This document shows, piece after piece, positions 1 to 46,632 of a stretch of DNA of 62,161 nucleotides. The stretch is taken from contig JAFGIP010000051.1 in assembly GCA_016929525.1 (NCBI GenBank), positions 1-62,161 of the forward strand. Direction: 5' to 3'. This DNA comes from Bacteroidales bacterium (lineage in GTDB: Bacteria; Bacteroidota; Bacteroidia; Bacteroidales; UBA10428). Made by a program: the position numbers and the translations under genes. How positions within the stretch are numbered: the stretch's first letter is position 1; each line of letters begins with the position of its first letter. Below the pieces are notes generated by a model. The model saw nothing but the letters and a program-made list of their open reading frames with translations. It was not told where the DNA came from and made no database searches.

Positions 1-87
1 AATATTATGGTAAGATATGAGATATCAGACAAAAAGAGTCTCAAACCTACCAAAGACTTTAGGTGGCTATAGCAATGGGGTTCCACC

Positions 88-129
88 CCTGCCTGCCTGC
101 CTATAACGGCAGTTAAACCGGAAGGCAGG
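88..129 (+). repeat. 42-nt palindromic insert in 5S helix III
   Basis: The insert starts CCTGCCTGCCTGCC and ends GGAAGGCAGG. Its ends form a 7-bp stem, CCTGCCT (88-94) with AGGCAGG (123-129), extended by two more pairs after a mismatch; TGCC/GGCA (98-101/108-111) can form an inner hairpin. It lies exactly between the C87-G149 and U130-A148 pairs of helix III, so it would branch out as a side helix. CCTG is repeated in tandem at its left end. Confidence 0.8.
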
Positions 130-161
130 TCTTCCCATACCGAACAGAGAAGTTAAGACCA

Positions 162-181
162 CCTGCCTGCCGGTAGGCAGG
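162..181 (+). repeat. 20-nt palindromic insert in 5S helix II
   Basis: The sequence CCTGCCTGCCGGTAGGCAGG is a near-perfect palindrome with stem CCTGCCT/AGGCAGG around GCCGGT. It separates A161 from U182, which otherwise form consecutive pairs (U76-A161, A75-U182) of helix II. It shares its terminal CCTGCC/GGCAGG with the insert at 88-129, so both look like members of one small repeat family. Confidence 0.82.
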
Positions 182-232
182 TTCGCGCCGATGGTACTGC
201 GACTAGCAGGAGAGTAAGTCGCCGCCGTTTTT

Positions 233-275
233 TAATCCCGATATACTACTTAGTAATTACATCGGGATTTTTTAT
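233..275 (+). terminator. Rho-independent terminator after 5S
   Basis: AATCCCGAT (234-242) pairs with ATCGGGATT (261-269) across an 18-nt loop and is followed by a run of T. It ends the rRNA operon. The stem contains the same TCCCGAT/ATCGGGA arms as the hairpin in the broken tRNA-Leu at 46633-46650. Confidence 0.75.
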
Positions 276-46383: not shown

Positions 46384-46456
<73 letters not shown>

Positions 46457-46496
46457 CTTTTTTTTTGTTAAAAATTACGTTCTGAGTATATAGATT

Positions 46497-46582
46497 GCCC
46501 GGATGGCGGAACTGGTAGACGCGCTGGACTTAAAATCCAGTGGACAGCAATGTCTGTGTGGGTTCAAGTCCCACTCCGGGTA
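46497..46582 (+). tRNA. tRNA-Leu (TAA)
   Basis: An 86-nt class II tRNA: acceptor GCCCGGA with TCCGGGT, anticodon stem CTGGA/TCCAG with loop CTTAAAA (anticodon TAA), a long variable arm and T arm GTGGG-TTCAAGT-CCCAC. CCA is not encoded. It lies 40 nt after tRNA-Gly and likely shares its transcript. Confidence 0.97.
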
Positions 46583-46632
46583 CAAAAAGAGTTCAGATCA
46601 CTTAAACAATCGAAATCAGAATGGCAGACGCG

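Follow-up and report, generated by a model that had tools for sequence, protein, structure and literature searches.

A 5S rRNA gene of 108 nt, located at positions 59–228 of the window, is interrupted twice, and both interruptions are precise and rare among the genomes searched. The two inserts, of 42 nt (positions 88–129) and 20 nt (positions 162–181), are members of a family of palindromic repeats dispersed through the same genome, and the 5S core and its terminator have been retained. The window is the whole stretch of 62,161 nucleotides that was analysed; it is the beginning of contig C89 of a bin (G000) that comprises 122 contigs. We consider it probable that the gene is a redundant 5S copy that was struck twice by a REP-like element and that is either tolerated or beginning to decay.

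The interrupted gene and its core

The gene and its surroundings are composed of the following features. The insertion sites are given in what we take to be the E. coli numbering, in which insert 1 lies between positions 31 and 32 (31/32) of helix III and insert 2 between positions 63 and 64 (63/64) of the 3′ strand of helix II.

1..58, + strand: sequence upstream of the 5S gene, at the contig start; its final bases, AAAGACT, are like the 5S leader of some family members
59..87, + strand: 5′ part of the 5S core, with the 5′ strands of helices I and II, loop B and the start of helix III (from the core alignment and pair listing)
88..129, + strand: insert 1, a 42-nt palindromic dispersed repeat at 31/32 in helix III (from repeat searches, copy alignment and pair listing)
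130..161, + strand: middle part of the 5S core, with helix III, loop C, loop B and the 3′ strand of helix II (from the core alignment and pair listing)
162..181, + strand: insert 2, a 20-nt palindromic dispersed repeat at 63/64 in the 3′ strand of helix II (from repeat searches and pair listing)
182..228, + strand: 3′ part of the 5S core, with the end of helix II, helices IV and V, loop E and the 3′ strand of helix I; pair 71-105 of helix V is C-A (from the core alignment and pair listing)
229..275, + strand: intrinsic terminator, ATCCCGAT...ATCGGGAT followed by a T run, −11.4 kcal/mol (from folding and comparison with relatives)

When the inserts are set aside, an alignment with 20 5S genes of the order covers the entire core, which scores 102.5 bits over its positions 1–108 on the profile built from these genes; this bears out the identification as 5S rRNA that a previous, sequence-only reading of this DNA had made. 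These 20 genes are 18 of the 20 5S loci from one search (L030 and L035 were left out) and two from another, and the core used for scoring and alignment has two extra 3′ bases. On the same profile, the interrupted gene is recovered as two pieces only, of 57.8 and 22.3 bits. The 5S of this bin also resembles those of named Bacteroidota contigs. The sequence-only reading had recommended a comparison with the Rfam 5S model (RF00001); in a relaxed Rfam search, the gene as it stands reaches 27.9 bits against a cut-off of 38 and is aligned in the wrong register (105–230), and no match over the cut-off was found anywhere in the readable part of the bin, the interrupted gene included. That such a gene scores under the standard 5S cut-off is a warning for annotation. 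The full conserved core, with all of its helices except for pair 71-105, is nonetheless present once the inserts are removed, as judged on the profile of the relatives.

The removal of the inserts reforms helix II, with seven pairs and a bulge at window position 184, and helix III, from pair 31-51 to pair 34-48 with two bulged A residues; insert 1 sits opposite these residues, A52-A53. The insert boundaries and the restored helices are exactly those that had been proposed from the letters of the sequence. Both insertions are base-precise and lack a target duplication, and neither junction can be slid, since the flanking bases differ from the end bases of the insert. The hairpins that the reading had predicted are also recovered, as the inserts folded alone reach −18.0 (insert 1) and −11.8 kcal/mol (insert 2). 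According to folding and junctions, at the level of the gene, the arrangement is that of an expanded 5S rRNA, in which internally paired inserts extend from an intact core.

Relatives of the same genus are uninterrupted wherever the sites are visible. Site 2 is continuous in the six contigs that show it (one each from G004, G006, G007 and G008, and two from G005) and site 1 in the two genomes that show it (G006 and G007), the remaining contigs beginning past this site; no 5S was found in the other three genus relatives (G001, G002 and G003). Both ends of helix I and the terminator are intact in the interrupted gene, and the ATCCCG...CGGGATTTTT hairpin located 3′ of the 5S is also found in G004–G008. 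The 58 nt upstream of the gene looked by eye like a 23S–5S spacer, but this assignment was dropped because local alignments with the upstream sequences of ten relatives were no better than those of shuffled sequences. Far downstream, a tRNA-Gly(gcc) and tRNA-Leu(taa) pair at positions 46384–46583 represents the sole tRNAs found in the window.

A dispersed palindromic repeat in and outside 5S genes

The search of the genome for further copies of the palindrome, which the sequence-only reading had also suggested, was productive. The motif CCTGCCTGCC occurs five times in the window (three of them inside the inserts), against 0.02 expected, and the pattern CCTGCCTGCC-N(2-30)-GGCAGG gives 18 matches at 14 places in the bin, both 5S inserts counted, versus none for the reversed pattern. 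A looser pattern, CCTGCC-N(8-34)-GGCAGG, gives 38 matches at 31 places, some of which may not belong to the repeat family, and none in the control. Four further 42-nt copies of insert 1 were found (in C120, C56, C64 and C57), with a mean column identity of 96% over the five copies including that of the 5S gene, and insert 2 has one further exact copy (C44:21271-21290). In the 16 loci considered (15 of the 29 places outside the 5S gene, and C56), no reading frame longer than 99 aa spans the element. The stricter pattern is present in 18 of 40 genomes, the bin itself included, with a patchy spread: within the genus, there are 34 matches in G001, five in G003 and one each in G004 and G006, and none in G002, G005, G007 or G008. 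The highest number among the 40 genomes, 164 matches of CCTGCCTGCC..GGCAGG (83 forward and 81 reverse), is that of a member of the same family, G017.

Regarding how the inserts arrived, a search for the C120/C56 insertion site in its unoccupied form gave nothing clear. The repeat copies nearest to the inserts share flanking bases with the 5S sites (C..TCT and CA..TT, with a chance of 0.0225 per pair), but this is a hint only of templated insertion, as the copies compared were picked for being the nearest.

The element has some of the characteristics of REP sequences. It is a short palindrome with many dispersed copies outside genes, and the bin encodes three REP-associated tyrosine transposases, all over the NF047646 cut-off (96.9 bits against 80 for that of C51). 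In C51, a 38-nt copy of the palindrome splits a diverged hairpin repeat 20 bp after the transposase gene, without target duplication, and the uninterrupted version of this hairpin repeat is found twice in the same locus. There (L160, positions 1–1030), the transposase gene lies between copies of a GTTAGTC..GACTAAC hairpin repeat, and it is a further, diverged copy that is split by the CCTGCC palindrome. By contrast, no full palindrome was found in the loci of the other two transposase genes, and the copies begin with CCTGCC and end with GGCAGG, with flanks that, among the copies inspected, show no common tag by eye. Canonical REPs, as the available parts of two reports describe them, bear a GTAG-type tag (PMC3733652, PMC6006769), and the systems differ in that the element described here has no GTAG or GTGG tag at its 5′ foot and accompanies one of three transposase genes only. 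For this reason, it is described here as REP-like rather than classified as a REP. Atypical hairpins with copies elsewhere are described in the available text as flanking the transposases of subclass 2.6, which are found mostly in Bacteroidetes (PMC6006769).

Other palindromes are known to enter genes, and the element may be compared with them. The Rickettsia palindromic elements are short palindromes located inside genes and are, in this respect, similar to the 5S inserts; they differ in sequence, and the 16 copies of the present element that were examined lie outside long reading frames.

Interrupted 5S genes are infrequent in other genomes. An exact pattern for a site 1 insert matched three of 393 genomes of the order (the window and two normal 5S genes with a chance CACC upstream) and seven of 395 genomes of the phylum (the window and six normal 5S genes of the same sort), where the two sets overlap and, for comparison, a readable 5S was present in 18 of the 40 genomes of another search. 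A collection of species genomes, which may omit those nearest to that of the window, was scanned once for inserts of approximately 10–40 nt in the helix II arm, rather than for site 1 alone, and gave 15 stretches. Six of these are 5S genes of Clostridia/Ruminococcus that match the pattern through another native layout, and four more were discarded as partial 5S duplications (L052 and L064), a run of N (L053) and unrelated sequence (L059). The other five are 5S remnants that contain intact or degraded palindromes (L063, L055, L051, L060 and L061).

The most informative of these remnants is that of L063, from a metagenome bin of Flavobacteriaceae (CANJWG010000017.1, approximately 49–560 in reverse-strand coordinates). 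There, a normal 5S is followed by a 5′-truncated 5S that carries a CCTGCC..GGCAGG palindrome at 31/32, while its helix II strand contains a different palindrome, TCCCGAAGCTTCGGGA. Next comes a further short remnant similar to 5S, which also has a CCTGCC..GGCAGG palindrome. The L063 insert at 31/32 shows that this 5S position has been hit in a bacterium other than that of the window, which is a hint of a preferred target. In L055, a TCCCGAAAGCATTCGGGA palindrome occupies the helix II strand of a remnant behind a normal 5S. Moreover, in the Flavobacterium contigs L051, L060 and L061, the 5S remnants have had their 5′ half replaced, and their helix II strand contains a hairpin of the TCCCGAAACTTCGGGA type, either intact or degraded; L051 contains at least two such remnants in succession.

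Contig ends and a probable second 5S copy

The sequence-only reading had also called for a comparison with the other 5S genes of the genome and its relatives. The relatives behaved as described above, but no second 5S was found in the readable part of the bin, either over the Rfam cut-off or by DNA likeness. A search for 23S in the same stretches gave no match, a result that says little about its absence.

The geometry of the contigs, however, points to another copy. We sampled 87 contig ends of the bin, of which 85 were readable. A terminal stretch of at least 60 bases is shared with another end by 30 of them, and the other 55 have no partner in the sample. None of the shared stretches goes past base 87, and 17 of the 30 stop exactly there, the others at bases 83–86. 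As shared ends never extend further, the data fit an assembly with 87-base overlaps, in which the start of a contig precedes a fork by 87 bases. Insert 1 begins at base 88 of its contig, that is, exactly 87 bases in, so the fork is most likely to be located exactly at the insert junction. Contig geometry thus indicates that the sample most likely contains a second molecule with the same 58 upstream bases and the same 29 bases of 5S, followed by a different next base. The simplest candidate for it would be an uninterrupted 5S, which could belong to a second operon or to a second strain, and by this reasoning an uninterrupted copy probably exists beside the interrupted one. Contigs may start for other reasons, in which case the coincidence with the junction would be due to chance. 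In the genus relative G005, two contigs bear a 5S and share exactly 87 bases, so a genome of this genus can have more than a single rrn end. Another type of contig end was also observed: 15 sampled ends share the terminal sequence ...GAACAGTCTC (the starts of C2–C6, C23, C35, C37, C39, C45, C64 and C71, and the ends of C7, C82 and C86), apparently that of a multicopy insertion sequence at which the assembly is broken.

The sequence-only reading had proposed that the inserts would give either an expanded or a fragmented and processed rRNA, and had named intact 5S copies, combined with an interrupted copy that is never transcribed, as a point against itself. It was right in that this is a real gene with inserts, but it missed both the dispersed copies of the repeat and the second copy implied by the contig start, which make a weaker case for ribosomes that must carry the expanded RNA. 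The first half of that point probably holds, since an intact copy is likely to exist, although it is deduced from contig ends and is not seen in the bin.

Fate of the interrupted copy

A possible alternative, which we hold with limited confidence, is that the gene codes for a working expanded 5S rRNA, in which both hairpins would be kept as expansion segments and a 170-nt RNA would be present in ribosomes, alone or beside a normal 5S. Stepanov and Fox (2021) described, in the main text available, 89 expanded 5S rRNAs of prokaryotes, each of which carries between one and three segments, of 13–109 nt, and may coexist with normal copies (PMC7812874). The number of inserts found here is within that range. 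The segments known from that text are likewise hairpin-forming and placed in an otherwise conserved core, as they are in the interrupted gene, where the core and the terminator are kept and both inserts fold locally. The location of the inserts is ambiguous in this regard: the same text counts site 52-53 among the least obstructed, and insert 1 lies opposite these residues, but it also states that site 29-30, near insert 1, overlaps the binding site of uL18. Neither 31-32 nor 63-64 is among the sites named in the text of the paper, its table aside, and the segments described here differ in being copies of a dispersed repeat of their own genome and in being mutually complementary.

This complementarity counts against a working RNA, together with the loss of pair 71-105 and the second continuation from the same 5S head that is deduced from the assembly. 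In folding predictions, the duplex between the inserts reaches −32.4 kcal/mol, nearly equal to the −29.8 kcal/mol of the two local hairpins summed. For the naked 170-nt RNA, the native fold with both hairpins has −41.0 kcal/mol, versus −67.2 kcal/mol for the best fold and −58.8 kcal/mol when just the two hairpins are forced. The mutual complementarity of the inserts thus leads to a prediction of misfolding for the naked RNA. Nevertheless, without the inserts the core likewise folds best into a non-native structure (−29.2 versus −20.3 kcal/mol for the native one), so the gap between native and best folds is partly a limit of the method, which takes no account of proteins or of co-transcriptional folding.

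The hairpins inside helices of the 23S intervening sequences provide a different precedent. In analogy with them, an RNase III-type activity would excise the inserts and leave 5S fragments that stay associated through base pairing. We regard this as improbable, as the stems are short (8 bp in insert 2), even though the excision of 5S inserts has been raised as a possibility in the text of PMC7812874.

It is very improbable that misassembly or chimeric reads placed repeat copies in a normal 5S gene: the assembly is indeed fragmented, with short overlaps, and a contig end and repeats are involved, but the exact next base of the 5S resumes after each insert, an overlap of 87 bases can cover insert 1 together with 5S sequence on either side, and a named Flavobacteriaceae contig carries an insert of this kind at an identical position. 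We give hardly any credit to a second, non-ribosomal 5S-like copy in tandem behind a normal 5S; insert-bearing remnants of this type are described in the text of PMC7812874, and L063 and L055 follow that layout with inserts in a 5S-like core (at the same 31/32 site in L063), and the 58 nt upstream cannot be recognised as a 23S–5S spacer, but those remnants lack a 5S end whereas the copy in the window is full length with a complete 5′ end, and the upstream 58 nt, inspected by eye, contain nothing resembling a terminator hairpin.

The reading that we favour is, as stated above, that of a redundant copy. A REP-like palindrome of a Bacteroidota-type genome would have entered one 5S copy on two occasions, each time precisely and with no target duplication, through a machinery that may act on single-stranded hairpins, as is thought for REP-associated tyrosine transposases. 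At least one 5S copy with a different continuation, most simply an uninterrupted one, would coexist in the genome or population, and its presence is proposed to allow the interrupted copy to persist. If transcribed, the latter would give rise to an RNA of 170 nt in which helices II and III each bear a hairpin arm. As the inserts can pair with each other, this RNA may tend to misfold, in which case it would add little to ribosomes and its gene would start to decay.

The sequence of the core is consistent with mild erosion. The 5S genes of the same family score 112.1–121.3 bits when each is left out of its own profile, and ten out of ten are above the 102.5 bits of the core, a value that lies inside the range of the other ten genes of the order (84.0–112.6 bits). 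The core has three changes at columns that are invariant in the other full-length genes, in which the number of such changes goes from 0 to 5. One is found in loop C, another turns a U-G pair of helix IV into U-A, which improves the pair, and the third breaks pair 71-105, left as C-A. All three are located 3′ of insert 1.

In the literature, as judged on titles and the beginnings of abstracts, no such inserts were found in the 5S of Bacteroidota. The abstract of PMC7812874 names Clostridiales, Halanaerobiales, Thermoanaerobacterales, Alteromonadales and Halobacterales, and the terms Bacteroidetes, Bacteroidota, Flavobacteri- and transpos- have no occurrence in its main text. According to the same text, motifs similar to one of the inserts that it describes are intergenic in other genomes, yet they are restricted to 5S in thermoanaerobacterial genomes. 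What is new is, hence, a 5S gene with two expansions from a group that this paper, as far as its abstract and main text go, does not list, with inserts that can be traced to a repeat of their own genome.

A bolder proposal, which we consider doubtful, is that fixed 5S sites (31/32 in helix III and the 3′ strand of helix II) are recurrent targets to which mobile palindromes of Bacteroidota home and that, in this organism, two such palindromes have become the expansion segments of a ribosome-borne 170-nt 5S, giving rise to two kinds of ribosomes. As to where rRNA expansion segments originate, the inserts described here have relatives in the same genome, which makes it possible to name their source, and if this proposal were true, the origin of expansion segments from an organism's own mobile repeat would be directly readable. 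If the RNA is used, the gene would represent a natural test of the carrying capacity of 5S rRNA; if it is not, it would show the onset of decay in a redundant rRNA copy.
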